This document shows positions 17,161-38,694 of a stretch of 64,000 nt of DNA, piece after piece. Under the pieces are notes generated by a model that was not told the DNA's origin, did not search any database, and saw only the letters and a list, made by a program, of their open reading frames with translations. Each line of letters opens with the position of its first letter. Position 1 is the first letter of the stretch. A program made the position numbers and the translations under genes. Where the stretch lies: positions 372,001 to 436,000 of the forward strand of contig NC_007498.2 in assembly GCF_000012885.1 (NCBI RefSeq), written 5' to 3'. The stretch comes from Syntrophotalea carbinolica DSM 2380 (GTDB taxonomy: Bacteria > Desulfobacterota > Desulfuromonadia > Desulfuromonadales > Syntrophotaleaceae).

Positions 17161-17383
17161 GCTGTTACGCCCTCCCCTGTGACGCCGCCGGAACGGAGCG
17201 GGCGGCGGGCGAAACAGGCGGACGACTGAGCGCAGCGAATCTCGTCCGCCCGCCCGACGGTCGCGCCGTGGAGGGCACCCGCCGCAGGCGGGCCAGGAGC
17301 GGGGCACCTTTCTCTGCTTACTATCTTTTGGTGTGAAAAGAGAGTAAGGCGCCGGGTGGGGGCGCGACCCCACGGTGTTGAAG
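17161..17383 (+). repeat. A repeat, copy A1
   Basis: This is a full-length copy of the ~220-base GC-rich element whose core begins GACGCCGCCGGAACGGAGC. It folds into several hairpins: GGCGGAC/GTCCGCC (17217/17244), CCCGCC/GGCGGG (17278/17287), an imperfect CTTACTATCT/AGAGAGTAAG, and GTGGGG/CCCCAC (17356/17368). The last helix carries a T-A pair where other copies have C-G, a compensatory change. It starts just after the aldo/keto reductase gene on the same strand. Confidence 0.9.
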
Positions 17384-17410
17384 TTGAAGGACCAAAAGCA
17401 AATTCTTTAC

Positions 17411-17670
17411 ACTTCAAGTTCGCCGGTCCCGGCCGGCAGCCGGCTTACTTTCTTTACTCGTCTAAAGAAAGTAACCAAAGAAAGGACGTAAAGTCGGCTG
17501 CCGCCATCACTGGATTTCGCGAGATGACGGTGCTGGCGATCACCGTTGCTGTGAAATAAGAGGTGCTTCAGCTTCGTATGCGGCATCTGCGAAACGATGG
17601 CGGTTCACCAGTGGTCTACGAGGCTGTTGCAGACACCGGCGCTGCTGGATTGTCTTATAACAGCTTTGCT
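17411..17670 (+). repeat. B repeat, copy B1
   Basis: This ~260-base element is shared with 26931-27190. It contains a long nested hairpin: an outer CGGCAGCCG/CGGCTGCCG and an inner ACTTTCTTTA/TAAAGAAAGT. It lies between A1 and the truncated A1'. No convincing open reading frame is conserved between the copies. Confidence 0.85.
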
Positions 17671-17741
17671 GTTACCCCCCTTTTGACGCCGCCGGAGCGG
17701 AAGCGGGCGGCGGGCGGGGGCGCAACCCCGCGGTGTTGCAG
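17671..17741 (+). repeat. A repeat, internally deleted copy A1'
   Basis: Both ends of the A element are kept (GACGCCGCCGG at the left, CGCAACCCCGCGGTGTTG at the right), but about 150 central bases are missing. It abuts B1 directly, completing an A-B-A arrangement. The following 165 bases to the next ATG hold no feature I can support. Confidence 0.85.
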
Positions 17742-17907
17742 TTTTGTTCTTCATCATAGGTAACACTTTGATTCCGGTATATGGATAACCTTCGTGAGGC
17801 CCTCCTTTCGCTTTTCCGTTAGGAAGATAAATACATAACCCTCTTCCATCCCTCGACCATGCCTGCTAAACTCCCGGGTGTTTTCCTCATGAAACAAGGG
17901 AGTCGCC

Positions 17908-18573
17908 ATGTCTCGAACGTTTATTCGTCCTTTGCTCTGCGCCTGTCTGGCGCTCTGTTTTTTATCCGTGGGAACAAGCCGGGCGGCCGAGCCCGGTCTG
18001 TCAAAAAGTATTGCGCAGCTTGAGGCGCGTATCGCGGCCTATGTTCCGGATCCTCGTTACCGGGAAGACCGTTTCGGGTTGATCGTTGTCAAGCAGGCCA
18101 TCGTCAGTCTAAAGGCCGGCTCCGGCGGCATCGGTGCCTGCCTGGTCGATGCCCGCACCGGCAAGGTGGTCGAGAGGGGGCGCAATCGGCAATACAGCCC
18201 CTATTTTCGCAGCGATATGCATGCGGAGATGGATCTGCTCAACCGCTACGAGGATCGATTGAAGAAGAAAGGCGGTTCCAATTCGAGCGGCGATCCGCGT
18301 CAGTGCGGTGATCTGATACTGTTTACCTCCACGGAACCCTGTCCCATGTGCCTGACCCGCATCATCAATTCCGGGATACAACGCATGTACTATCTCAATC
18401 CGGATATGGAAGGGGGCATGGCTCATCGCATGGAGCACCTGCCGAAGTTCTGGCGCGAATTTGCCGCCGGCCGGGATTTTCGTCAGGCGGAATGCTCTCC
18501 GACCCTGAGAAAAATCGCGGAAGATCTTTTCCGCCACTCCGTACGGTCTTTTGCCAGAAAAAGCCAGCCTTGA
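17908..18573 (+). CDS. exported cytidine/deoxycytidylate deaminase-like protein
   Basis: The 221-residue protein has a signal peptide (residues 1-26, ending SRAA) and then a zinc-dependent deaminase fold: HAEMD (zinc His plus catalytic Glu) and PCPMC (two zinc cysteines). These are the CDA-superfamily active-site motifs. Such enzymes normally act on cytosolic nucleosides, bases or tRNA, so an exported form is unusual; relatives annotated as nucleoside deaminases with leader peptides may act in the periplasm. GGGAG precedes the ATG. Its substrate is unknown. Confidence 0.82.
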   Translation: MSRTFIRPLLCACLALCFLSVGTSRAAEPGLSKSIAQLEARIAAYVPDPRYREDRFGLIVVKQAIVSLKAGSGGIGACLVDARTGKVVERGRNRQYSPYFRSDMHAEMDLLNRYEDRLKKKGGSNSSGDPRQCGDLILFTSTEPCPMCLTRIINSGIQRMYYLNPDMEGGMAHRMEHLPKFWREFAAGRDFRQAECSPTLRKIAEDLFRHSVRSFARKSQP

Positions 18574-18784
18574 TGCCGTTCTTATGACAGTCTGGCCGGT
18601 TTATTTTCGGTACCGGTAAACCGATTCGGCGTTGTTTCGTCTATACCACTGAAAGAAATCCGGCAGGAATCTCATCCTCCCTGCAGAGCCGCCCGCAAGC
18701 CGGTCATCATAAAGGGTTGGTAACAAGGGACAGCGCAGGTTGCACGGTGTGGCAATAATCGCCGGGCCTGTTAGGAGAGTGGTC

Positions 18785-20062
18785 ATGAGACGGATAGCAC
18801 TGGTATTTTCGGTTGTGCTGGTAACGCTGTGCGGAACGGGACAGGTTTTTGGGCAGACCGTCGAAACCCTCGACGAGCCCGAACAGCTGGCCATGTCCGA
18901 TACTCTGCAATACGCTTTGGAAAACAACCCGACCAGTCAGGTTGCCAACTGGGTGAACCCGGATACCGGGCGATCCGGTTCGGTGGTGCCGGTCAAGACT
19001 TTCACCAATGAGCTGGGCCAGCCGTGTCGCGAATTTGTCACCACGATTATTATCGGTGGTCAGGAAGAGCAGGGCTACGGTACCGCCTGCCGTCAACCGG
19101 ACGGATCCTGGCAGATTGTGGCCGATGAGCAGGCATCGACATCCACGCAGGCTCCCACCAACGTTTATGTTTATCCGCCGCAGCGGTATTATTACGTGTA
19201 CCCCGATGCGTATTATTACTACCCGTCGCGATTCTATTATCCCTACAATATTTTCCTGAGTTTCGGGTTTATTTTCCGCAGCGGATCTTTGTATTACGGT
19301 TCGTATTACCTGGATAACTACCATTTCCATCGTCGTCATCCGGTTCATGTGCGATCCCGGATCTATGTCGGCCCTCGTATTTTTACCCGCCATCGCTGGT
19401 ACACTCACCCCTACGTTCACCATCGTACGCGAGGGCCTTCGCCGGCCTATCGCTATCGCACTGAAGAACGTCGACGGACCACCATCACTCCGAGGTATCG
19501 CGACCGTCAGGACCACCGTCAGCAACGCATCTTGCGAGATCGAAGTCGCATCCAGCAACCGCGTATCCAGCAGAGACAGCCTGCCGTGAAACGCCAGCAG
19601 CAGAAGGCGCCGGTACTGCGTCAGCACCGCGATTCGGGCAATCAGGGCCGTATCCAGCAGAGACAGCCTGCCGTGAAACGCGAGCAGCAAAGGGCGCCGG
19701 TACTGCGTCAGCACCGCGATTCGGGTAATCAGGGTCGTATCCAGCAGAGACAGCCTGCCGTGAAACGCGAGCAGCAAAGGGCACCGGTACTGCGCCAGCA
19801 CCGCGATTCGGGAAAGCAGAGCCGTATTCAGTCGCAGCGGCCGCAACAGACACGATCGGCAGTTAAATATGAGCGGCGCAAAGCACCGGCCACGGGCCGA
19901 GGCGACATCCGCAATCAGAGTCGGTCCCGTTCAGCCCAGGTGCAGGGCAAACAACCTGTGGTGCAACGCGAACAGCAAAGATCGGTATCTCGGCGAGCCC
20001 CCGAAGTGCGCCAGCAGCAAAATCCCATGGCGCACCAGGGCGGTCGGCGGATGGCGAGATAA
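18785..20062 (+). CDS. secreted surface-antigen-like protein with Gln/Arg-rich tandem repeats
   Basis: The 425-residue protein starts with a signal peptide (residues 1-24) and a domain resembling the 17-kDa surface antigen family: ALENNPTSQVANWVNP, then REFVTTIIIGGQEEQGYGTAC and DGSWQIV. It continues with a Tyr-rich and then His/Arg-rich stretch and ends in a very basic, Gln/Arg-rich low-complexity tail with three 29-residue tandem repeats. TAGGAGAG supports ATG 18785. It is probably an envelope or periplasmic protein; the basic tail might bind polyanions. Function is unknown. Confidence 0.75.
   Translation: MRRIALVFSVVLVTLCGTGQVFGQTVETLDEPEQLAMSDTLQYALENNPTSQVANWVNPDTGRSGSVVPVKTFTNELGQPCREFVTTIIIGGQEEQGYGTACRQPDGSWQIVADEQASTSTQAPTNVYVYPPQRYYYVYPDAYYYYPSRFYYPYNIFLSFGFIFRSGSLYYGSYYLDNYHFHRRHPVHVRSRIYVGPRIFTRHRWYTHPYVHHRTRGPSPAYRYRTEERRRTTITPRYRDRQDHRQQRILRDRSRIQQPRIQQRQPAVKRQQQKAPVLRQHRDSGNQGRIQQRQPAVKREQQRAPVLRQHRDSGNQGRIQQRQPAVKREQQRAPVLRQHRDSGKQSRIQSQRPQQTRSAVKYERRKAPATGRGDIRNQSRSRSAQVQGKQPVVQREQQRSVSRRAPEVRQQQNPMAHQGGRRMAR
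19562..19822 (+). repeat. three 87-base in-frame tandem repeats
   Basis: Units begin at 19562, 19649 and 19736, each encoding 29 residues starting RIQQRQPAVKR. Copies two and three are nearly identical at DNA level, implying recent duplication and likely copy-number variation. Confidence 0.9.
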
Positions 20063-20327
20063 GACACAGGCCGCATCCGTTACAAAACAGCTGAGCACAT
20101 GGTTGTTGGAGAATTCCCCGGATTTTACATTTTGGCCGATATTCCACCCGGTTCGCGCGCCAGGCAGCCGGGTGTATTTATGGGCCATGTAAATCTCTGT
20201 CGTGGATACGACGGGTTATTTTCATTTTTTTTACACAGTTTCTCCTTATTGACATGGTAAGCCTACGTCTCATGAAACTTCATGCAGATCGACCTTGATG
20301 ACCCTTCAGCGTTTAAAGGCATGCCTT
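20063..20327. other. intergenic region with weak stem
   Basis: An ACCCGG/CCGGGT inverted repeat (20146-20173) may end the surface-protein transcript. A TTGACA at 20249 could be the -35 of the downstream regulator, but its -10 is poor. Confidence 0.3.
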
Positions 20328-21026
20328 ATGGAAATTTCGGCCAACCATGAAAAGAACATCTGGATACTTGCCCATCAGGCTCAACCGGATCTATCCTCCC
20401 TGCAGGATCTTATGGGGGGTGGTTATCACCTGCAACCGTTTGCCATCCGCAAAAGCGCTGTCCTGCATCCGCCCCAAAAGGTGGATCTGGCCCTTTTGGA
20501 TATGGCGGCATCAACCCAGGATGCCATGACCAGCATCATGCGATTGCGGGAGGATTATAAAGGGCCGTTGGCGGTGCTGGATAACCATCCCAACGAAAGA
20601 CGTCATATCCTTGCCCTTGAAATCGGCGCCGATGACTATCTGCAGCAACCCGTCAGTTCGCCGGTGCTGGCGGCGCGTATCGAAGCTTTGTTGCGCCGCT
20701 ATCAGCAGGCGGAAAGGGAACCCTCGGCGGTGATCTCTGTCGGCGATCTGACCATTGACGCAACGCGCAGGGAGGTGACCAAAAATGAGAAGGTCATTTC
20801 GGTCACCACTGTCGAGTTCAAATTGCTCTGGTATCTGGCCAGCCATGCCGGCATAGTGGTGAGCCGCAACGATATTCATCTGGCTCTTTATAATCGGGAA
20901 TACAACGGTATCGACCGTTCCGTCGATATGTACATCTCTCGGTTACGAAAAAAACTTGGCGACTGTCCCGCCCATCCCACGTTGCTCAAAACCATCCGCG
21001 GCGACGGCTACCTGTTTGTCGGGTAA
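20328..21026 (+). CDS. OmpR-type response regulator with degenerate receiver
   Basis: The 232-residue protein has a receiver domain (about 1-115) and a winged-helix trans_reg_C DNA-binding domain (135-232, with FKLLWYLASHAG and VDMYISRLRKKLGD...TIRGDGYLF). The phospho-acceptor Asp is present (LALLDMA), but the acidic pocket at the first strand is replaced by AHQAQ and the conserved switch Lys is Gln (LQQP), so normal phosphorylation is doubtful. AAAGG supports ATG 20328; ATG 20298 is an alternative. It precedes nifE by 310 bases with a terminator between, so it need not regulate nif genes. No cognate kinase is adjacent. Confidence 0.8.
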   Translation: MEISANHEKNIWILAHQAQPDLSSLQDLMGGGYHLQPFAIRKSAVLHPPQKVDLALLDMAASTQDAMTSIMRLREDYKGPLAVLDNHPNERRHILALEIGADDYLQQPVSSPVLAARIEALLRRYQQAEREPSAVISVGDLTIDATRREVTKNEKVISVTTVEFKLLWYLASHAGIVVSRNDIHLALYNREYNGIDRSVDMYISRLRKKLGDCPAHPTLLKTIRGDGYLFVG

Positions 21027-21061
21027 TATTCGCTTGCCCCCATCGAATCCATTTCATCCAT

Positions 21062-21108
21062 AGCCCCCGGGTTTCCGGCGACAGATCATGCCGGGCTCCC
21101 TGGGGGCT
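21062..21108 (+). terminator. terminator after the response regulator
   Basis: The stem AGCCCCC/GGGGGCT has an inner CCGG/CCGG element and is followed by GTTCGATTT. It separates the regulator from the nif promoter. Confidence 0.55.
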
Positions 21109-21249
21109 GTTCGATTTGAGTCACCTTTCTTAACTTTGCTTTCCAACTTCCTCCTCCGTTTGCTTAAAAAGTAATCAACGCCTTCTTTTTCATCGCGCAA
21201 GTTCGCTCTTCAAAGTTGTAAGTTGCCGAAATAGCGTATTTTTATATAC

Positions 21250-21265
21250 TGGCAGGGGTTTTGCT
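21250..21265 (+). promoter_or_regulatory. sigma-54 promoter of nifEN
   Basis: TGGCAGG-N4-TTGCT has GG and GC at the exact -24/-12 spacing. The leader to the GTG start is about 60 bases. A near-match to a NifA site, TGT-N10-TCA at 21108-21123, lies about 130 bases upstream but misses one base of ACA, so the activator is uncertain. Confidence 0.75.
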
Positions 21266-21336
21266 TTATGTATGGCATAAAGCCTGTCCTCTCTCCCTCC
21301 AGGCTTACTTCATCTGTTTAAAAAAGGAATCAGGCC

Positions 21337-22689
21337 GTGGCAACTAAACCAAAAATTCGAGAATTGCTGGACGAGAGTGCCTGCGCTCACAACAAAACCA
21401 AGACGGCTGGCTGTAACAAAACAGTCCCCGGTGCCACTACTGGCGGATGTGCCTTCGAGGGGTCGCAGATCTCTCTTTTCCCTTATGCCGATGCAGCGCA
21501 TCTGGTGCACGGTCCCATAACCTGCGTGGGGGCTTCCTGGGAAACCCGGTTGACCCGAACCAGTTGGCAGGGCCGCGATATGACCCAGATGGGTTTTACC
21601 ACCGGCATTTCCACCAACGACGTGGTCTTCGGCGGGGAGGAAAAATTACGGCAATCCATCGACTATATCGTTGGGCATTACGCCCCTCAGGCGGTATTTG
21701 TCTACAGTACCTGCGTTACGGCCATGATCGGTGATGATATCGATGCCGTCTGCCGTCAGGCACAGCAGGACCATGGTATTCCCATGGTGCCGGTACACGC
21801 TCCCGGTTTTGTCGGCGGCAAAAATCTCGGCAGCCGGCTGGCTGGCGAAGCGGTGCTGACGCATCTGATCGGCACTCTCGAGCCGGAGGAAACGACGCCT
21901 TTCGACATCAACCTGATCGGCGATTACAACGTTACCGGCGATATGTGGCAATATGCTCCGCTGCTGAAGGAACTCGGCATTCGGATATTATCCACCCTGA
22001 GTGGCGACGGCCGGGTGGCCAGGATACGCACCGCGCACCGCGCGCACCTCAATGTTCTGGTGTGCGCCAAGTCACTGATCTCGCTGCCGCGTAAACTCAA
22101 GGAAAAATACGGCATTCCGTTCATCTCCGTGTCCTTTTACGGTAAGCGCGATACCAGCGCCAGCATTCTCGCCATCGCCGAAGGCCTTGGCGATGCCGAC
22201 CTGATCGCCCGCACCAAGCAGCTCATTGCCCGCGAAGAGGCCCGTCTGGAAGAACGCCTTGCTCCCTACCGGGAGATTTTCCGCGGCAAGAAGGCGGTGT
22301 TGAATACCGGCGGCAACAAATCGTGGTCCATCGCCTCGGCTTTGCAGGATCTGGGCATCGAGGTTGTAGCCACTTCGGTAAAAAAATCCACCCAGGTGGA
22401 CAAGGAAAAGGCGCGTAAGTATCTGGGGGAAAAAGGGGTGCTGATGACCAACCCGGGAGCGGAGCAGGCCAAAATTATCGACCAAACCGGTGCCGACCTG
22501 CTGCTGGCGGGAGGACGCAGTCTATATACGGCCATCAAGAAGAAGATCGCTTTCGCTGATGTCAACCAGGAGAAAAAGAAGAGTTACGGCGGTTACGAGG
22601 GGTTGCTCAATCTGGCCGAAGATCTGAAAAATGCCCTGGAAAATCCGGTATTCAAAAACGTCGCAAGGAGGGCACCGTGGGAGAAATAA
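21337..22689 (+). CDS. nifE: nitrogenase FeMo-cofactor assembly protein NifE
   Basis: NifE pairs with NifN to form the scaffold on which the NifB cofactor matures to FeMo-co. The 450-residue protein has the NifE-type N-terminus (PGATTGGCAFEG, then ADAAHLVHGPITCVGASWETR) with the cluster-binding cysteines at GGCAFEG, PITCVG and VYSTCVTAMIGDD. GTG 21337 is supported by AAGGA eight bases upstream and by family alignment. It overlaps nifN by 13 bases. A sigma-54 promoter lies about 70 bases before the start. nifH, nifD and nifK are not in the window. Confidence 0.93.
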   Translation: MATKPKIRELLDESACAHNKTKTAGCNKTVPGATTGGCAFEGSQISLFPYADAAHLVHGPITCVGASWETRLTRTSWQGRDMTQMGFTTGISTNDVVFGGEEKLRQSIDYIVGHYAPQAVFVYSTCVTAMIGDDIDAVCRQAQQDHGIPMVPVHAPGFVGGKNLGSRLAGEAVLTHLIGTLEPEETTPFDINLIGDYNVTGDMWQYAPLLKELGIRILSTLSGDGRVARIRTAHRAHLNVLVCAKSLISLPRKLKEKYGIPFISVSFYGKRDTSASILAIAEGLGDADLIARTKQLIAREEARLEERLAPYREIFRGKKAVLNTGGNKSWSIASALQDLGIEVVATSVKKSTQVDKEKARKYLGEKGVLMTNPGAEQAKIIDQTGADLLLAGGRSLYTAIKKKIAFADVNQEKKKSYGGYEGLLNLAEDLKNALENPVFKNVARRAPWEK

Positions 22690-23969
22690 GCCACAAAATC
22701 GAGAAACCGCTGCAGATCAATCCTATCCGGCTGTCGCAGCCCATGGGGGCAGCGCTGGCTTTCCTCGGTATCGACGGCTGCATGCCGCTCATGCATGGCG
22801 GTATGGGGTGTACGTCCTTCACCAAGGTGTTTCTGACCCGCCATTTTTGCGAGCCGATCGCTATCCAGACCACGGCTGTTACGGATGTCACCGCGATCCT
22901 CGACGGTGGCGACAGCAGCATCGTCGAAGCGGTGCACAACATCACCAAAAAAGTTACCCCCAGTCTCGTCGGCCTGCATACCACCGGTCTGACCGAAACC
23001 AAGGGCGATGACATCCGTGGCGCGGCCAAACAGGTCGATTTTCCCATGGTTTATGTGCATACGGCCGACTACGAAGGCGGATTGGAAAGTGGCTGGGGCA
23101 AAACGGTCAAGGCGATCATCGAGCAACTGGTCGAAGAGCGCTCACAGGTCCAGTCCGACAAAGTGGTGTTGCTGCCCCATGTGTCCATGCAGCCCATCGA
23201 GGTGGAAAAGCTCAAGGATTTCATCGCACTGTTCGGCCTGGAGGTTGTAGCCCTGCCGGATCTTTCCACTTCGCTTGACGGTCACCTGGGTGAGAAACAG
23301 AGTGCTCTGAGCAGCGGTGGCGTTAAGGTTGAGGCCATCGTCTCGATGGCCGATGCCGCAACGGTTATCTCCGTCGGTGCATCGATGCAACTCAGTGCCG
23401 AAGCCTTGTTGAAAAAAAATGCCGCCATGCGGCATATCCACATGGACCATGTGCAGGGGTTGGTGGCAACAGATGCGCTGGTGGAGCAATTGCTTGCCCT
23501 GACCGGTATGGAACAGCCGCCGGCCAGTGTGGTGCGCTGGCGCAAACGGCTGCAGGATGTCATGCTGGACAGCCATTTTTCCTTGGGCCAGACCCGTGTG
23601 ATGGTGACCGGGGAACCCGATTTTGTGGCCGGAGCCTGTGAACTTCTGTCCGAGGCCGGCGCCCGCATCAGTGTGGCCCTGTCGACGGTGGACTCGCCAC
23701 AGCTGGAAGCCATAAACGCGGCAAAAGTCATGGTCGGCGATCTCGAGGACGCCGAGAAGCTGCAGGCCGAGTACGATCTTATTGTCGGCAGCATGCATGC
23801 CGAAGCCCTGGCGCATCGATTCGGCAAGGCATTGGTGCTACGCGGTTTTCCCTGCTGGGAGATCGTCGGCAACCAGCTGAAAAACGATCTTTTATATGAA
23901 GGCGGGGCGTATTTTCTCTGTGAAACGGCCAATGCCGCCGAAGCGATGCGCATGGGGAGCCACGATTAA
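22677..23969 (+). CDS. nifN: nitrogenase FeMo-cofactor assembly protein NifN
   Basis: NifN is the partner of NifE in the scaffold complex. The 430-residue protein shows NifN features: KPLQINPIRLSQPMGAALAFLGI, MHGGMGCTSFTKVFLTRHF, and TAVTDVTAILDGGD. The GTG start is inside the end of nifE and has AAGGAGG just upstream. The stop is followed after about 20 bases by repeat A2, so the nif transcript likely ends or is processed there. Confidence 0.93.
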   Translation: MGEISHKIEKPLQINPIRLSQPMGAALAFLGIDGCMPLMHGGMGCTSFTKVFLTRHFCEPIAIQTTAVTDVTAILDGGDSSIVEAVHNITKKVTPSLVGLHTTGLTETKGDDIRGAAKQVDFPMVYVHTADYEGGLESGWGKTVKAIIEQLVEERSQVQSDKVVLLPHVSMQPIEVEKLKDFIALFGLEVVALPDLSTSLDGHLGEKQSALSSGGVKVEAIVSMADAATVISVGASMQLSAEALLKKNAAMRHIHMDHVQGLVATDALVEQLLALTGMEQPPASVVRWRKRLQDVMLDSHFSLGQTRVMVTGEPDFVAGACELLSEAGARISVALSTVDSPQLEAINAAKVMVGDLEDAEKLQAEYDLIVGSMHAEALAHRFGKALVLRGFPCWEIVGNQLKNDLLYEGGAYFLCETANAAEAMRMGSHD

Positions 23970-23990
23970 CAGTTGGTTTTCCGATTTGGC

Positions 23991-24213
23991 GTTGCCGTTA
24001 ATCCCCTTGTGACGCCGCCGGAACGGAGCAGGCGGCGGGCGAAACCGGCGGACGACTGAGCGCAGCGAATCCCGTCCGTCCGCCCGACGGTTGCGCCGTG
24101 GAGGGAACCCGCCGCAGGCGGGCCAGGAGCGGGGCACCTTTCTCTGCTTACTCTCTATTGGTGTAAAAAGAGAGTAAGGCGCCGTGGGGGGGCGCGACCC
24201 CGCGGTGTTGCAG
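23991..24213 (+). repeat. A repeat, copy A2
   Basis: This full-length copy follows nifN. Helix GGCGGAC/GTCCGTC (24047/24074) holds a G-U wobble intermediate between the G-C and A-U forms seen in other copies. CTTACTCTCT/AGAGAGTAAG is perfect here. Confidence 0.9.
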
Positions 24214-24250
24214 TTGGTGTTCGGTGGAAAGAACTAAAATCGTTACCTTA

Positions 24251-24290
24251 ACTTCAAGTTCACCGGTCCCGGACGGCCGCCGGCTTGACA
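24251..24290 (+). repeat. B repeat, 5' fragment
   Basis: The first ~40 bases of the B element (ACTTCAAGTTCACCGGTCCC onward) are followed by an abrupt break. The fragment lies between A2 and A3, keeping the A-B-A order. Confidence 0.7.
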
Positions 24291-24311
24291 AGCAGCTGTG
24301 CTGCTTTCGGT

Positions 24312-24533
24312 TTTGCCGTTAATCCCCTTGTGACGCCGCCGGAACGGAGCAGGCGGCGGGCGAAACAGACGGACGACTGAGCGCAGCGAATCTTGTCCGT
24401 CCGCCCGACGGTTGCGCCGTGGAGGGAACCTGCCGCAGGCAGGCCAGGAGCGGGGCACCTTTCTCTGCTTACTCTCTATTGGTGTAAAAAGAGAGTAAGA
24501 CGCCGTGCGGGGGCGCGACCCCGCGGTCTTGAA
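24312..24533 (+). repeat. A repeat, copy A3
   Basis: Compensatory changes are seen in two helices: GACGGAC/GTCCGTC (24068/24395 region, A-T in place of G-C; left arm at 24368) and CCTGCC/GGCAGG (24429/24438, T-A in place of C-G). CTTACTCTCT/AGAGAGTAAG is perfect. Confidence 0.9.
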
Positions 24534-24619
24534 GTTAAGGGTTCAAAGATAAATCCCTACACTTTTCACTCTTGTAGGACAAACAACACAAAACTTTAAC
24601 TTTCCGGAAGGAATGCTCC

Positions 24620-25627
24620 ATGCTTCTTTACACCGACACCATCCGCCGCTGGGCAACCGACTATCGTCGTTGTCGCGACCTCACCGATCCCCACGGGACG
24701 GGAGAGGTCGGCATGGCTCATGGCGAGGAGGGCACCCGCATCGCCGTGCGGTTTACGGTGCATCTCCAGGGCGCGTTGATTACCGATGTCGGTTATCAGG
24801 TGTTCGGTTGCGGTTACTCCATGGCTGCTTGCGCCGCAGCGGCAGAGCTGGCCTGTAACAAAAATTTGCCGTCGGCAATGGCCATTGACGCTTCGCAGGT
24901 CGATGCGTTGCTCGATGGCTTGCCGCCGGAGCGCAGTTATTGCGCCGATCTGGCGGTGGAAGCATTGCAGGCGGCCCTTGCCAGTGCCAGTGGTGATGCG
25001 CAGACCGTTCAGGCCGCCTATCATCCTGCCGAAGAGGAACACGGCCCCCGCGTTCATGCCGATCATCCTGTGTACCGTGCCCTGATGGACAGTACTCCGG
25101 TTGAAGGTAGCTCAGAGGAAAACCGGCATCTGTTCGCCTGTCTGCTCAGCGTTGCCGCCGACGAACCGTACGACACCGCGGCGGCCCTTGGCCTGAGTGC
25201 CGATGATCTGAAGGTACTTTTGGAAACCTGGTTCCCGGAATGCAGCCCGGGACTGTTCAGCCAAGCGGATCGGTCGGAGCAGGTTCCTCCCGAGTATAAC
25301 GACGAAGTGCTGCAAATTCTGCTTACCCATGTGCCACGGGAGGCGAATGGCACACTGCAGACCTCATCTCTTCTGTTGGCCCGCATCATCGCGGCCCGAA
25401 CCGCCTATCCCGGTCATCTGTGGGTCGCCATGGGGTTATTCGAACGCCCCCAGTTGAGCGCTTCCATTCGCCGGCTGCTACCATCACTGGCTGCGGCCAA
25501 TAATCAGAACATGCGTTGGAAACGCTACCTGTTCAAACAAGTCTGCGATCTCAACGGCGGGATGATGTGCAAATCCCCCAATTGTGGAGATTGCAGCGAT
25601 TACGCGATCTGTTTTCCGGAAGACTGA
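24620..25627 (+). CDS. nifQ: IscU-like/NifQ fusion protein
   Basis: The 335-residue protein joins an N-terminal NifU/IscU-type scaffold domain (about 1-125) to a C-terminal NifQ domain (about 155-335). NifQ is a molybdenum-Fe-S protein that supplies Mo for FeMo-co; its cluster motif C-x4-C-x2-C-x5-C is intact as CKSPNCGDCSDYAIC, preceded by MRWKRYLFKQVCD. In the scaffold part, GCGYSM and YCADLA match the second and third IscU cysteines, but the first (usually in GAPACGD) is replaced by AHGEEG, so cluster assembly is probably altered. AAGGA precedes the ATG. It follows nifEN across an A-B-A repeat block. Confidence 0.87.
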   Translation: MLLYTDTIRRWATDYRRCRDLTDPHGTGEVGMAHGEEGTRIAVRFTVHLQGALITDVGYQVFGCGYSMAACAAAAELACNKNLPSAMAIDASQVDALLDGLPPERSYCADLAVEALQAALASASGDAQTVQAAYHPAEEEHGPRVHADHPVYRALMDSTPVEGSSEENRHLFACLLSVAADEPYDTAAALGLSADDLKVLLETWFPECSPGLFSQADRSEQVPPEYNDEVLQILLTHVPREANGTLQTSSLLLARIIAARTAYPGHLWVAMGLFERPQLSASIRRLLPSLAAANNQNMRWKRYLFKQVCDLNGGMMCKSPNCGDCSDYAICFPED

Positions 25628-25722
25628 GCTGCAACCCGGTTTTCCCCACCCCTTTGTCTTTTCCCCACCGACAGGTTATAATCCGCCCCTCTACCGATGA
25701 TTCCATTCCGAGGGGCTTCCGC

Positions 25723-26607
25723 GTGCAGCTTATCAAGCATCAATTCAATTTTATACGTTCCCTGCTGGAGATGATTGCATTCTCCCATTCAGTGTTCGCT
25801 TTTCCCTTTGCCCTGTTGGGGGCGTTACTGGCGGTGCAGGCCAGCGGCGCCTGGCCGACTGCGGCTCAGCTGGGCTGGATATGTCTGGCCATGGTCGGTG
25901 CCCGTTCCGGTGCCATGGGGCTCAACCGCATCATCGATGCCGGCCTCGATGCCGAGAATCCGCGCACCCGCGGGCGTCATATCCCCAGCGGCAAAGTCTC
26001 CCGGCGGGCGGCCTGGCTGCTGGTCTGTGTGTCCTTTGCCGCGTTGCTGCTGGCGGCGGGCATGCTCAATTCCTTGTGTCTGATGCTGGCGCCGCTGGCG
26101 GTAGCGCTATTCGTTCTTTATCCGTTTTGCAAGCGCTTTACGGCGCTGTCGCACCTGGTATTGGGTGCCTGTCTGGGCGCGGCACCGGTCGGCGCCTGGA
26201 TTGCGTTGCGCGGCGATGTGCGCTGGCCGGTGGTGCTGTTAGGGGTTGCGGTTTTGCTGTGGGTGGCGGGCTTCGATATCCTTTATGCGCTGCAGGACGA
26301 AAGCCATGATCGCCGCGCCGGTCTGCATTCACTGCCGGTACGATTGGGCGCCCGCCGGGCCTTGTTGCTGGCGCGCGTGCTGCACACGCTGATGGTGCTG
26401 CTGTTGGCGGGAGTGGCTTTTGGCGGCGGATTGGGTGGTCTCTTTCTGTGCGGGGTGCTGGTGACGGCCGGCCTGCTGGCCTGGGAACATCGCCTGGTGC
26501 GGCACGATGATCTGAGTCGCCTCAATCAGGCTTTTTTTACCATGAACGGTCTTATAAGCGTGTTATTGTTTGGGTTTGCGCTGGGGGATGTTCTGGTCCG
26601 TTTTTGA
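25723..26607 (+). CDS. mqnP: UbiA-family prenyltransferase, probable MqnP
   Basis: The 294-residue integral membrane protein has about eight helices and attaches a polyprenyl chain to an aromatic acid. The two Asp-rich Mg-diphosphate sites are present as NRIIDAGLDAENPRT and YALQDESHDRRAG. GTG 25723, preceded by GAGGGG, is chosen over the longer open frame because it leaves a short N-terminus before SFSHSVFAFPFALL-like sequence, as in relatives. With ubiX, mqnE and mqnC downstream, it most likely serves the futalosine menaquinone pathway. Confidence 0.85.
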   Translation: MQLIKHQFNFIRSLLEMIAFSHSVFAFPFALLGALLAVQASGAWPTAAQLGWICLAMVGARSGAMGLNRIIDAGLDAENPRTRGRHIPSGKVSRRAAWLLVCVSFAALLLAAGMLNSLCLMLAPLAVALFVLYPFCKRFTALSHLVLGACLGAAPVGAWIALRGDVRWPVVLLGVAVLLWVAGFDILYALQDESHDRRAGLHSLPVRLGARRALLLARVLHTLMVLLLAGVAFGGGLGGLFLCGVLVTAGLLAWEHRLVRHDDLSRLNQAFFTMNGLISVLLFGFALGDVLVRF

Positions 26608-26660
26608 ATATCCGAACAGCTCTACATTTTAATGCTGCTCCTGGATTGTTTAAGCGGCTG

Positions 26661-26880
26661 TGCCGTTTTTCCCCTCGTGACGCCGCCGGAACGGAGCAGG
26701 CGGCGGGCGAAACCGGCGGACGACTGAGCGCAGCGAATCTTGTCCGCCCGCCCGACGGTTGCGCCGTGGAGGGAACCTGCCGCAGGCAGGCCAGGAGCGG
26801 GGCACCTTTCTCTGCTTACTATCTTTTGGTGTAAAAAGAGAGTAAGGCGCCGTGCGGGGGCGCGACCCCGCGGTGTGGAA
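26661..26880 (+). repeat. A repeat, copy A4
   Basis: This full-length copy follows mqnP. It carries the compensated CCTGCC/GGCAGG helix (26776/26785) also seen in A3, with the G-C form of helix GGCGGAC/GTCCGCC (26715/26742). Confidence 0.9.
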
Positions 26881-26930
26881 GGAGAAGAACTGAGGGCGTT
26901 GTTGTATCGAGGACCAAGGCAAACATCTCA

Positions 26931-27190
26931 AACTTCAACTTCGCCGGTCCCGGCCGGCAGCCGGGTGGCTTTCTTTACTCGTCTAAAGAAAGTCACCAAA
27001 GAAAGGACGTAGGGTCGGCTGCCGCCATTACTTGATGTCTCGGGATGGCGGTGCTGTCGATCACCGTCGCAATGAAAAAAGGATACTTCAGCTTCGATTG
27101 CGGCATCTTCGAAATGATCGTGGTTCGCCAGTGGTCTACGAAGCTGTTGCCGACACCGGCGCTGCTATATTGTCTTATAACAGCTTTGCT
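26931..27190 (+). repeat. B repeat, copy B2
   Basis: It aligns with B1 along its whole length with scattered substitutions and keeps the ACTCGTC loop hairpin. It joins A5 directly at TTTGCTGTTAATCCCC. Confidence 0.85.
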
Positions 27191-27407
27191 GTTAATCCCC
27201 TTGAGACGCCGCCGGAACGGAGCGGCTGGCGGGCGAAACCGGCGGACGACTGAGCGCAGCGAATCTTGTCCGCCCGCCCGGCGGTTGCTCCGTGGAGGGA
27301 ACCCGCCGCAGGCGGGCCAGGAGCGGGGCACCTTTCTCTGCTTACTATCTTTTGGTGTAAAAAGAGAGTAAGGCGCCGTGCGGGGGCGCAACCCCGCGGT
27401 GTTGAAG
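27191..27407 (+). repeat. A repeat, copy A5
   Basis: This full-length copy lies directly before ubiX, with standard G-C forms of both main helices (27241/27268 and 27302/27311). With A4 and B2 it forms the third A-B-A block. Confidence 0.9.
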
Positions 27408-27460
27408 TTTCGTTCATCATCATGGGTAACACGTAAAGTATCCGAAGAAGGGAATTCTTC

Positions 27461-28066
27461 ATGCAACATATTCTTGTGGCCATAACCGGCGCCTCCGGCG
27501 CAGTGTACGGCCTGCGCCTGGTCGAAGAGCTGCTGGCTTCAAAATGCCGGGTAACCCTGCTGCTGAGTCGTTCCGGTCGGCAGGTGCTGGCCCATGAAAC
27601 CGGACTGGATTGGCAGGGCTCCGTCGCGCAACGACTGCGAAAAATGCGCGAGCATTTCACCTGCGGCGAACAGCTGATGCATTACGATGAAGACGATATG
27701 TTTGCACCGCCGGCCAGCGGCTCCGCATCGCCGACCGCTATGGTTGTGGCGCCCTGTTCCATGGGTACCGCAGGGCGGTTGGCGGCCGGCATCAGCGGCA
27801 ATCTCATTGAACGGGCGGCGGATGTGGCCCTGAAAGAGGGGCGGACGTTGCTGCTGGTGCCTCGGGAGACGCCGTTGTCGGCCATCCACCTGGAGAACCT
27901 GTTGCGCTTGTCGCGTGCCGGGGCACGTATCGTGCCGGCCATGCCGGCCTTTTACCAGCAACCGCAAAGCATGGCCGAGCTGATCGATTTTATGGTCGGG
28001 AAAATACTCGATGGGCTGGGCATCGAACATAAACTCTTCCGGCGTTGGGGGGATGACGCCTCGTGA
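27461..28066 (+). CDS. ubiX: flavin prenyltransferase UbiX
   Basis: UbiX makes prenylated FMN for UbiD-type decarboxylases. The 201-residue protein has the N-terminal flavin-binding ITGASGAVYGLRL, the central VVAPCSMGTAGRLAAGIS and LLVPRETPLS signatures, and normal length. It lies in an overlapping cluster with mqnE (GTGA) and mqnC, consistent with supplying cofactor to the late decarboxylase of menaquinone synthesis; no ubiD gene is in the window. Confidence 0.93.
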   Translation: MQHILVAITGASGAVYGLRLVEELLASKCRVTLLLSRSGRQVLAHETGLDWQGSVAQRLRKMREHFTCGEQLMHYDEDDMFAPPASGSASPTAMVVAPCSMGTAGRLAAGISGNLIERAADVALKEGRTLLLVPRETPLSAIHLENLLRLSRAGARIVPAMPAFYQQPQSMAELIDFMVGKILDGLGIEHKLFRRWGDDAS

Positions 28067-29151
28067 TATCCTTATCTGACATCGCCGCCAAGGTCGAAGC
28101 CGGCCACCGCCTCAGCGAGGCCGAGGCGGTTTTTCTGCTGCAGTCATCCGATCTGTTGGCGGTAGGCGAACTGGCGGCCCTGGCCAATCGGCGCCTGCAT
28201 GGCGATAAGGTCTATTTCAATGTCAACCGCCACATCAATTACACCAATATTTGCGTGAATAACTGCGCTTTCTGTGCGTTCCGGCGCGATGACGGGGCGG
28301 CAGGAGGTTATACCCTGAGCCTGGAGCAGGTTGCCGCACGGGCCAAACAGGCCGCCGCCGCGGGAGCCACCGAGGTGCATGTGGTGGGCGGGTTGCATCC
28401 GCATCTGCCGCTGGCGTTTTACGAACAGATACTGCGTACCATTCGCGAGAGCGGTCCGGATCTGCATATCAAGGCCTTTACCGCCGTGGAGCTGGCGCAT
28501 TTTTCCGCCATCAGCGGCCGGCCGCTGGAAGAAGTCATCGGCCGTTTGCAGGCGGCCGGCCTGCAGTCGCTGCCCGGTGGCGGCGCGGAGGTTTTCGCCG
28601 AACGCGCCCGGGCGCACCTCTGCCCGGAAAAGATTTCCGGCACCCGCTGGCTGGAGGTGATGCGCACCGTCCATCAGGCCGGTCTGCGCTCCAACGCCAC
28701 CATGTTGTTCGGCCATCTGGAGACTCCGGTCGAACGTATCGAGCACCTGGCCCGACTACGCGCTTTGCAGGATGAAACAGGCGGCTTCCAGGCGTTTGTG
28801 GCATTGCCGTTTCAGGATGTGGGAACCCGTCTCGACGGGGTACGGGGGCCCGGCGGGGTCGAGATTCTCAAAACCCTGGCGGTGGCACGACTGTTCCTCG
28901 ATAACATTTCCCATATCAAGGCCTACTGGGTGATGCTCGGCGTCAAATTGGCGCAGGTGGCCCTGGCTTTCGGCGTCAACGACCTGGACGGCACCGTAGT
29001 GGAAGAGCAGATCGGTCATCAGGCCGGCGCCGCTTCCCCCCAGGCTTTGAGCCGCGAGGGGCTGGTGCGCATGATTCTCCGGGCTGGACGTACGCCGGTT
29101 GAGCGGGACAGCCTGTACCAAGACCTGGGGCGGGAGCGGTCAGGATGCTGA
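28063..29151 (+). CDS. mqnE: aminofutalosine synthase MqnE
   Basis: This radical SAM enzyme joins 3-enolpyruvylbenzoate to adenosine to make aminofutalosine. The 362-residue protein has the cluster motif CVNNCAFC after NRHINYTNI, plus the family segments EVHVVGGLHP and LPGGGAEVF. The GTG start overlaps the ubiX stop (GTGA). Its stop lies inside the start of mqnC. It is distinguished from MqnC by its CAFCAF context and by the HPHLP and FGHLETP segments. Confidence 0.9.
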   Translation: MISLSDIAAKVEAGHRLSEAEAVFLLQSSDLLAVGELAALANRRLHGDKVYFNVNRHINYTNICVNNCAFCAFRRDDGAAGGYTLSLEQVAARAKQAAAAGATEVHVVGGLHPHLPLAFYEQILRTIRESGPDLHIKAFTAVELAHFSAISGRPLEEVIGRLQAAGLQSLPGGGAEVFAERARAHLCPEKISGTRWLEVMRTVHQAGLRSNATMLFGHLETPVERIEHLARLRALQDETGGFQAFVALPFQDVGTRLDGVRGPGGVEILKTLAVARLFLDNISHIKAYWVMLGVKLAQVALAFGVNDLDGTVVEEQIGHQAGAASPQALSREGLVRMILRAGRTPVERDSLYQDLGRERSGC

Positions 29152-30212
29152 ACGTCATAGCTGAGAAACTCGAGGGCGGCCAGGCTCTCAACCGCAAGGA
29201 CGCTCTTTACTTGTTGCAGCAGGCCGATCTGCTGGCCCTGGGAAGAATGGCCGATGGTGTGCGCCGCCGTTTGCACCCGCAGGGCCGGGTGACCTTCGTG
29301 GTCGATCGTAACGTCAACTATACCAATGTCTGCCGGACCGGCTGCCGTTTCTGTGCTTTTTACCGGCAACTGGATGATTCGGACGCCTACCTGCTGTCCC
29401 ACGCGCAGATCCTCGACAAGGTTGCCGAGCTTGCGGCCTGCGGCGGGACCCAGTTGTTGTTGCAGGGCGGACTGCATCCCGAGTTGCGCATCGCGTGGTT
29501 CGAAGAGTTGTTTCGCCGTCTGCGTCGGGATTTCCCCGGTGTGCAGATCCATTCTCTGTCCCCCGCCGAAATCGTTCATCTGGCCAATCAGTCCGGCCTG
29601 ACCGTGGAGGAATGCCTGCGCCGGTTGCAGGCCGCCGGTCTGGCTTCCCTGCCGGGTGGCGGTGCGGAAATCCTGGTCGATCGCGTGCGGCGCCGCATCT
29701 CGCCGGACAAAATCGGCTGGCGCAAGTGGGTTGAAGTCATGGAAACTGCCCATCGGATGGGATTACCCGGCACTGCGACCATGATGTTCGGTGCCGGTGA
29801 AACCGATGAGGATATCGTCACCCATCTGTTGCGGGTGCGCGCTCTGCAACAACGCACCAACGGATTCAGCGCCTTCATCCCCTGGTCCTACCAGCCCGGC
29901 AATACCGAACTCGGCGGCGAGGAGGCCACCGGCATCGATTACCTGCGGGTACTGGCGGTATCCCGACTGGTACTGCACAATATTCCCAATATTCAAGGCA
30001 GCTGGGTCACCCAGGGCGGCAAGCTGGCCCAGGTCGCGCTGTTCTTCGGCGCCAACGATCTGGGCGGTACCATGCTCGAGGAAAACGTGGTGGCCGCTGC
30101 AGGCGCAACCTTCCGGCTGGATCGCGAGGAGCTGCTGGCGCTGGTGCGTGAGGCCGGTTTTGTGCCTGCCCGGCGGACGACGGGGTATGAAATCCTGGAA
30201 GAGTATGTTTAA
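29145..30212 (+). CDS. mqnC: cyclic dehypoxanthine futalosine synthase MqnC
   Basis: This radical SAM enzyme cyclises dehypoxanthine futalosine. The 355-residue protein carries CRTGCRFC after DRNVNYTNV, then LLLQGGLHP, SLPGGGAEIL and MMFGAGET, and ends with NIQGSWVTQGG and GANDLGGTMLEENV, as typical of MqnC. It overlaps mqnE by seven bases. The two enzymes are paralogues sharing the same core. The other futalosine genes (mqnA, mqnB, mqnD) are not here. Repeat A6 starts within ten bases of the stop. Confidence 0.9.
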   Translation: MLNVIAEKLEGGQALNRKDALYLLQQADLLALGRMADGVRRRLHPQGRVTFVVDRNVNYTNVCRTGCRFCAFYRQLDDSDAYLLSHAQILDKVAELAACGGTQLLLQGGLHPELRIAWFEELFRRLRRDFPGVQIHSLSPAEIVHLANQSGLTVEECLRRLQAAGLASLPGGGAEILVDRVRRRISPDKIGWRKWVEVMETAHRMGLPGTATMMFGAGETDEDIVTHLLRVRALQQRTNGFSAFIPWSYQPGNTELGGEEATGIDYLRVLAVSRLVLHNIPNIQGSWVTQGGKLAQVALFFGANDLGGTMLEENVVAAAGATFRLDREELLALVREAGFVPARRTTGYEILEEYV

Positions 30213-30220
30213 GTGATGGG

Positions 30221-30437
30221 TTGTCCCCCCTTGTGACGCCGCCGGAACGAAGCGGGTGGCGGGCGAAACAGGCGGACGACTGAGCGCAGCGAATCTTGTC
30301 CGCCCGCCCGTCGGTTGCGCAGTGGAGGGAACCCGCCGCAGGCGGGCCAGGAGCGGGGTGCCCTTTTTCTGCTTACTCTGTTTGGGCATGCAAAAAGAGT
30401 AAGGCGCCGTGCGGGGGCGCGACCCCGCGGTCCTGAT
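30221..30437 (+). repeat. A repeat, solitary copy A6
   Basis: This is the only A copy without a B partner, between mqnC and hisC. Main helices are in the G-C form (30271/30298 and 30332/30341). The CTTACTC/GAGTAAG stem is shortened and its loop is changed. Confidence 0.9.
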
Positions 30438-37593: not shown

Positions 37594-37679
37594 GGAGGAG
37601 TGGCCGAGTGGTTTAAGGCGGCGGTCTTGAAAACCGTTGTGCGAAAGCACCGTGGGTTCGAATCCTACCTCCTCCGCCA
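37594..37679 (+). tRNA. tRNA-Ser (anticodon UGA)
   Basis: The acceptor stem GGAGGAG/CTCCTCC, long variable arm, TTCGAAT T-loop and encoded CCA are present. The anticodon loop CTTGAAA gives TGA. Confidence 0.95.
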
Positions 37680-37806
37680 TCTCTTGTACGAGAATAAATC
37701 GTCAGGGGTAAGGCAATTATGGGTTGACCTGTTCTTCAGGTAAGGTTAAAGTCTGGTTTCGAAATTGCCCTGCGGGGCATATACAGGAAAAAGCAAGTCG
37801 TTATAC

Positions 37807-37902
<96 letters not shown>

Positions 37903-37986
37903 TTGCGGCAAAAAAATTATTCCGATTCGGTAAAAAAAACGTTGACAAAAAAAGCCAAATCGGCGATAACTTCACCTCGCAAACAC

Positions 37987-38063
<77 letters not shown>

Positions 38064-38082
38064 TTTTAAAAATATCGACCCC

Positions 38083-38592
38083 GTGGATCTTGATCAACAA
38101 GACAGGGGCTTTATGCAAGAGGCCCTGGTAGAGGCCTCAGCCGCCGCAAGGTTGGGTGAGGTTCCTGTCGGGGCTGTTGTCGTTAAAGACGGCATGATTA
38201 TCGGCCGGGGTCACAACCTGCGGGAAACCAGTAACGATCCCACGACCCATGCCGAGATGATTGCTATCCGGCAGGCTGCTGCCGCCATCGATTCCTGGCG
38301 GCTGATCGGTTGCACGCTGTATGTGACGCTGGAACCCTGCGTCATGTGCATGGGGGCTATTATCCTGGCCCGAATCCCGCGACTTGTTTTCGGCAGTCGT
38401 GATCCGCGTGTCGGAGCTGTGGGCTCCATTTTCGATCTGTCCCGGGACGAGCGTTTCAACCATCAGGTGGCGGTCACCGAAGGTGTTCTTGCCCTGGAAA
38501 GCAGCGATATGCTCAGCGGTTTTTTTCGGCAGTTACGGGCCGAGAAAAAAAGCCGCAAGCGCAAGGCTGCCGATAGCGAAGATCAAACATAG
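38083..38592 (+). CDS. tadA: tRNA-specific adenosine deaminase TadA
   Basis: TadA converts A34 of tRNA-Arg(ACG) to inosine. The 169-residue zinc enzyme has HAEM (catalytic Glu) and PCVMC (zinc cysteines), with the family's EVPVGAVVVKDG strand. GTG 38083 is chosen because alignment with other TadA proteins needs residues before FMQEAL; ATG 38113, with a modest AGGGG site, would remove them. The gene begins only 20 bases after its substrate tRNA gene and probably shares its transcript. Confidence 0.92.
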   Translation: MDLDQQDRGFMQEALVEASAAARLGEVPVGAVVVKDGMIIGRGHNLRETSNDPTTHAEMIAIRQAAAAIDSWRLIGCTLYVTLEPCVMCMGAIILARIPRLVFGSRDPRVGAVGSIFDLSRDERFNHQVAVTEGVLALESSDMLSGFFRQLRAEKKSRKRKAADSEDQT

Positions 38593-38606
38593 TAGGTTAT
38601 GTGTAC

Positions 38607-38694
38607 GGAGGGGTGTCCGAGAGGTCGAAGGTGACAGACTCGAAATCTGTTGTACCGCAAGGTACCGTGGGTTCGAATCCCACCCCCTCCGCCA
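38607..38694 (+). tRNA. tRNA-Ser (anticodon CGA)
   Basis: The acceptor GGAGGGG/CCCCTCC stem, long variable arm and encoded CCA are present. Stem ACAGA/TCTGT encloses CTCGAAA, giving CGA. Confidence 0.95.

Follow-up and report, generated by a model that had tools for sequence, protein, structure and literature searches.

Type A elements in the window and the host genome

The window analysed here, 64,000 nucleotides (nt) of the Syntrophotalea carbinolica DSM 2380 genome (contig NC_007498.2, positions 372,001 to 436,000, forward strand), carries a set of structured repeats, designated type A, which are best read as one subfamily of a broad superfamily of ~200-nt elements in several phyla. The initial annotation, made from the sequence alone, had described six full-length copies and one deleted copy, and these were recovered as plus-strand type A elements of 207–215 nt at 17171–17385 (A1, 3' module 17301–17374), 24003–24215 (A2, module 24131–24204), 24324–24536 (A3, module 24452–24525), 26671–26883 (A4, module 26799–26872), 27198–27409 (A5, module 27325–27398) and 30227–30433 (A6, module 30356–30429), and as a deleted plus-strand copy at 17677–17743 (L028), in which ~40 nt of the 5' end run directly into the terminal 36 nt of the 3' end. 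The host genome (single contig, 3,665,893 bases) gave 29 type A matches: 24 near full length, one truncated (188 of 231 bases) and four fragments. Since the 25 longest reach E ≤ 3.4e-50, these matches are not due to chance. Fifteen of these 25 longer copies lie between 347 and 402 kb of the genome.

The statement that all copies lie on the plus strand holds for type A within the window, and fails genome-wide and for a minus-strand subtype, type B, which adjoins three of the window type A copies. Type B was first detected as a divergent second repeat at 17395–17701 and 26916–27221, and is not separate from type A, because its minus strand bears the same 3' module. One type B element (17391–17675, extent approximate, minus strand; 3' module 17418–17491; loop pseudoknot CGTC/GACG) faces A1, 3' end to 3' end; a second (26932–27190, extent approximate, minus strand; 3' module 26939–27012) lies between A4 and A5 and forms with A5 a head-to-head doublet with modules 313 nt apart; and a minus-strand 3'-end fragment (24251–24286, genome 396251–396286) lies between A2 and A3. 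A covariance model of the 3' module, comprising the H4 hairpin and its flanks (R1; 36 training sequences, four from the window), scored all six type A and both type B window copies at 41.9–74.3 bits, three type A and one type B copy matching by construction because they are among the training sequences. The same model found 34 modules in the host genome.

Fold and covariation

For the structural analysis, 30 full-length sequences from nine genera of the order were aligned (14 rows from the host genome, two of them copies of A1, and 16 from relatives). A 53-pair structure was paired in 95.7% of 1559 cells, and 27 of the 53 pairs were changed on both sides, in 152 cells. As an approximation to the phylogenetic test first proposed, shuffled and slid controls were used: none of 500 shuffles attained any of five pairing measures, and sliding the partners by 1–3 columns left 44–51% of cells paired and 7–10 doubly changed pairs. 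The largest helix switch was from GCGGGCG/CGCCCG in the host to TTTTGCG/CGCAAAA in related genera. That paired changes reflect selection on an RNA or hairpin-DNA structure, as first proposed, is strongly supported.

The base changes listed in the initial annotation were all found as given: helix 1 (GGCGGAC/GTCCGCC) has G-C in A1, A4, A5 and A6, G-U in A2 and A-U in A3; helix 2 is doubly changed to CCTGCC/GGCAGG in A3 and A4; and helix 4 reads GTGGGG/CCCCAC in A1. The three-helix structure proposed there was right for those helices and incomplete as a whole, the fold having seven helices including two overlooked, covarying pseudoknots. Pseudoknot 1, between the H4 hairpin loop and bases upstream, is doubly changed in three of four pairs (alignment columns set by hand before counting, one gapped column skipped), and pseudoknot 2, the first stem of a 3' H-type pseudoknot, in two of four. 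Because the search pattern behind the multi-phylum set forces the H4 stem, only the loop pseudoknot provides independent evidence in that set; a run of at least four Watson-Crick pairs was present in 58 of 84 unique copies, against a mean of 22.3 and a maximum of 35 in 10,000 permutations, and with another score on an overlapping 66-copy set none of 5000 permutations reached the observed value.

Mismatched cells read on the element strand comprised 40 G-U and 11 A-C, and from this excess of G-U it is probably the element strand that folds, which suits RNA, a DNA strand being possible also. Selection on a folded single strand, as opposed to passive junk, is strongly supported by these data. A passive repeat whose structure comes from base composition alone is extremely unlikely: high-GC stems do fold readily, but the shuffled and slid controls and the pseudoknot 1 permutations all speak against it. 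Four orthologous Pseudomonas copies, at loci ~95% identical up to the element, were too alike to gauge constraint.

Gain, loss and orientation relative to genes

Orthologous gaps were compared at two sites in three congeners (G002, G003 and G004), and presence varied at both. The gap that precedes the orthologous aminotransferase gene lacks A6 in all three, the congeners readable there, and the gap before the UbiX-like flavoprotein gene holds three modules in the host, one in G002, two in G003 and none in G004. No common gene order was seen between the copy clusters of the host genome and G004. The A6-less gap contains other short direct repeats (L281/L283): in G003 these are CAACTGA-type units, and in G004 GGTTCAA/GGTTCGA units follow one another over a long stretch. 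TAACTGA repeats have reportedly been described in Beggiatoaceae.

For orientation, 35 modules of the host genome (34 from R1 and one weak match) were entered, of which 33 were placed between called genes (simple gene calls, codon score). In co-directional gene pairs, 13 modules had the direction of the genes and 13 the opposite one (13 and 12 if the weak match is dropped), so that random orientation, one part of what the initial annotation had set down as counting against its structural claim, is what was found genome-wide. Among 76 copies of the broad set, 14 were oriented with and 23 against the genes, 30 lay between tail-to-tail and nine between head-to-head genes; cruder gene calls gave nine with and seven against in co-directional pairs of the host genome, and 20 and 19 in the broad set. 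Head-to-head sites are scarce in the broad set, as they might be if promoters were avoided; this scarcity is not seen in the host genome, with four head-to-head and two tail-to-tail among 20 sites.

These counts bear on a cis-acting 3' untranslated region (UTR) element, or a processing or termination element, of the upstream gene. Window type A copies do follow same-strand genes, and tail-to-tail sites are common in the broad set (30/76), but the even split in co-directional pairs, the absence of a recurrent neighbour gene across 120 loci and the varying presence at both orthologous sites make a cis-acting role very unlikely. The 3'-UTR regulator among the three roles first proposed is therefore unsupported, in view of the random orientation and the absence of a recurrent neighbour gene.

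Doublets, arrays and spacing

Modules were found in doublets of regular geometry in several genomes. Head-to-head spacings were 325–336 nt in G004 (n = 9), 309–322 nt in G016 (n = 15), 313–315 nt in the host genome, 392–393 nt in G039 and 136–466 nt in the named loci; tail-to-tail spacings ranged over 44–140 nt in G004, G016, G039 and the host genome (77–140 nt in G004, n = 10; 44–47 nt in G016, n = 12). Neighbours in the named loci were head-to-head in ten cases, tail-to-tail in one and same-way in two. Dense tandem arrays of doublets were present at G016:C7 (L276, L277) and G004:C1 1330–1346 kb (L083), with periods of ~505 and ~560 bases. In nine Lysobacter doublets, conserved arms of ~200 nt are held in common, the middle is variable and the ends are distinct. 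A further palindromic repeat, ATCCCCGCG...CGGGGAT with CAAGGACGTTGC after it, borders several of these nine in Lysobacter sp. M2-1 (L335–L343) and may be a common target or belong to a composite unit. The arrangement and orientation of the modules suit a mobile element that tolerates either direction.

Inverted doublets, tandem clusters, extragenic location and solitary copies would also be expected of a classical REP/BIME/REPIN system moved by a RAYT (Y1 transposase), and five Y1_Tnp genes are present in the host genome. Type A copies at 13 of 17 intergenic sites of the host follow the leading strand by GC skew (hand count), which suits strand-biased insertion, but genes share this bias, and the broad set had no local GC-skew bias (36 with and 42 against; 78 loci scored of 94). 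No module lies within 1.5 kb of any of the five Y1 loci of the host; four of 37 element-positive genomes, of which two are rated 100% complete and all have no more than 1–3 element matches, had no Y1_Tnp, and Y1_Tnp was present in 20 of 21 element-negative genomes. A RAYT partnership was rejected, since Y1 presence does not track the element and the host Y1 loci have no nearby module; with arms of ~200 nt and two pseudoknots in place of short palindromes, a classical system is improbable.

As described in the accessible text on REPINs and BIMEs (PMC3116915), the present elements share with them the extragenic inverted doublets, which are frequent in G004, G016 and Lysobacter, tandem clusters and singlets, compensatory changes and a non-autonomous character. 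They differ in the size and pseudoknots of the arms, in that no linked RAYT was found, in that the B and A arms are distinct subtypes, and in that solitary and same-way copies are common.

Breadth of the superfamily

Of 58 genomes searched, 37 (host included) gave matches, and many of these matches covered the 3' half alone; a hairpin pattern recovered at least 120 stretches in genomes taken one per species. Pattern carriers among the matches listed include Pseudomonas, Lysobacter, Luteimonas, Psychromonas, Vogesella, Methylotenera and Thiobacillus, together with environmental assemblies, some of them possibly misbinned, that carry the labels Neisseria, Latescibacterota, Cystobacterineae and Gemmatimonadota. 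With strict filters, R1 matched in 13 of 198 genomes of the phylum (host included). All 20 named genomes, which were chosen as pattern carriers, were positive with R1, at 3–80 modules each. Luteimonas cucumeris and Lysobacter sp. M2-1 count among the high-copy hosts. Neither a 20-base core nor the hairpin pattern was matched in viral contigs, and a 552-base query had no match in plasmids. In the Cystobacterineae assembly of L112 (G268), 17 listed modules start no more than 250 bases from the beginning of a contig; the assembly seems to break at near-identical copies, and the copy number there is therefore likely underestimated.

Known RNA families and CsrA

No curated Rfam 15 family matched the window copies (whole window; 23950–27500 at E up to 10) or the copies in loci of seven relatives. 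A whole-genome search with TwoAYGGAY (RF01731) at E up to 1 gave no match, and none in control genomes either. Five of the six type A copies have no trace of the two AYGGAY loops, and A3 has one ACGGAC, located within helix 1 and not in a loop. The window copies were thus rejected as TwoAYGGAY members, the Rfam gathering score not being reached and the AYGGAY hairpin loops being absent.

Elsewhere, TwoAYGGAY scored above the Rfam threshold in three matches within 19 named loci and in two further loci of a second, overlapping set. Because all five distinct matches (L094, L096 twice, L098 and L108) end 0–57 nt 5' of an R1 module, TwoAYGGAY apparently constitutes the 5' half of certain gammaproteobacterial members. 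In the scanned Pseudomonas and Psychromonas loci it stands directly 5' of the module as the 5' domain of the element; the Rfam model differs in having no 3' module, in not matching the window copies and in being filed as cis-regulatory. TwoAYGGAY RNA is listed in the accessible text of Weinberg et al. 2010 (PMC2864571), and CsrA binding is predicted for it in that of the RMfam paper (PMC4333381). No link between TwoAYGGAY and a repeat element was found in the literature within reach, which excluded supplements and most subscription papers. Apart from this 5' half of some members, Rfam 15 matched the tested copies nowhere; the fold is present in a few to dozens of copies in bacteria of several phyla.

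The five adjoining matches and the published prediction raise the alternative that the elements act as a trans-acting regulatory RNA binding CsrA/RsmA, a sponge in many dispersed copies, of which TwoAYGGAY would be the gammaproteobacterial form. The motif CA[AGT]GGANG occurs 5' of H4 64 times in sense and five times in antisense (shuffled mean 4.6; 104 non-independent sequences), and, among the named genomes, 10 of the 12 with a CsrA match and none of the eight without have AYGGAY in their elements (62 elements, 2–6 per genome). This correspondence is confounded by descent, which explains it equally well, because all 12 CsrA-positive genomes are gammaproteobacteria by title. Eight of the 20 element-bearing named genomes have no CsrA match, one of them holding 65 modules, and CANGGANG, present in elements of 8 of the 12 CsrA-positive genomes, is also present in four of four elements of G268, which has no CsrA. 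At the level of the order, an AGGA motif was counted in model coordinates (44 of 55 matches used, partial and repeated ones dropped) and was present in 18 of 29 elements of CsrA-positive and 5 of 15 of CsrA-negative genomes, four of the latter genomes being <90% complete. TwoAYGGAY does not match the window copies, and a hairpin-loop position for the GGA motifs of these copies would be conjecture. On these motif counts, CsrA binding or titration is possible for some gammaproteobacterial members and would not explain the family, for which a sponge role is conceivable but unlikely.

A proposed non-autonomous mobile element

Site gain and loss, doublets with tandem arrays, and random orientation make a non-autonomous mobile element the best fit of the three roles first proposed. 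The reading favoured here, with some confidence and appreciable doubt, is a REPIN-like non-autonomous mobile element, with selection keeping the fold that it adopts as RNA or single-strand DNA. Folded on one particular strand, the unit consists of a long 5' hairpin domain, a second, short hairpin, H4 and a 3' H-type pseudoknot, with the apical loop of H4 pairing with bases just upstream (pseudoknot 1) and the 3' end forming pseudoknot 2. Units are disposed singly, in tandem or, in many genomes, as head-to-head doublets amplified into arrays, as REP doublets are into REPINs and REPIN clusters. A putative trans-acting enzyme would move the element and recognise its fold, as RNA or single-stranded DNA, and this recognition may be the reason why the fold is kept. 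The family is best explained as REPIN-like, far larger and pseudoknotted, and not as an established REPIN.

Several observations weigh against this reading. The congener gaps are too divergent and yielded neither an exact empty site nor a target duplication. All-against-all BLASTP of 754 open reading frames (ORFs) from the 120 loci revealed no autonomous partner and no neighbour gene recurring in a way that suggests one; the groups that did recur consisted of ABC and RND genes, in scattered or orthologous positions, and of ORFs overlapping the element. The arms of the window doublet (B and A) are alike only locally, unlike those of a classical REPIN. Neighbours <700 nt apart in the host genome are same-way in seven cases, tail-to-tail in three and head-to-head in two, and 15 of 34 modules in the host genome and 34 of 60 in the named loci are solitary; the doublet is therefore not obligatory. 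Single-copy stem variants among 23 host copies keep pairing in 9 of 15 cases (45/270 expected for random substitutions); constraint on copies already in place would account for this, as would constraint on a moving lineage.

A combined form, a transposable regulatory RNA that is mobile and carries CsrA/RsmA-binding hairpins in CsrA hosts and other 5' domains elsewhere, is distinctly unlikely; if true, a selfish repeat and a CsrA sponge would be one molecule on a double-pseudoknot fold common to several phyla. As it stands, the family joins two subjects that are usually separate, extragenic mobile repeats and structured RNA candidates. For TwoAYGGAY, a missing 3' half and a mobile origin are suggested, and a well-defined element makes the keeping of fold in bacterial repeats a testable question.

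Other published repeats and further features of the window

Among published repeats, the P. fluorescens families R178 (101 bp) and R200 (320 bp) are described in the accessible text of PMC2718517 as intergenic, with 8–47 copies where present, and a tail-repeat-tail bias is reported there for repeats in that species; they resemble the present elements in intergenic site and in copy number. The Pelobacter carbinolicus genome paper (PMC3543383) lists 'multicopy nucleotide sequences' in its supplements, which may include type A copies; its accessible text gives no structure or wider family for them. The 'class 4' pentanucleotide sites of Geobacter metallireducens, as presented in the accessible part of PMC2700814, showed no likeness to family A and were rejected; multicopy families are described in G. 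bemidjiensis as well (PMC2996986). Integron attC sites, CRISPR and HEARO-type RNAs were set aside on general grounds.

Two features of the window lie outside the repeat family. Three in-frame 87-base repeats at 19562–19831, 91–95% alike to the first, encode a 29-residue repeat protein within the ORF at 18740–20062, the N-terminal part of which matches a 17 kDa surface antigen domain, and four tRNA genes lie within ~1.1 kb at 37594–38691.

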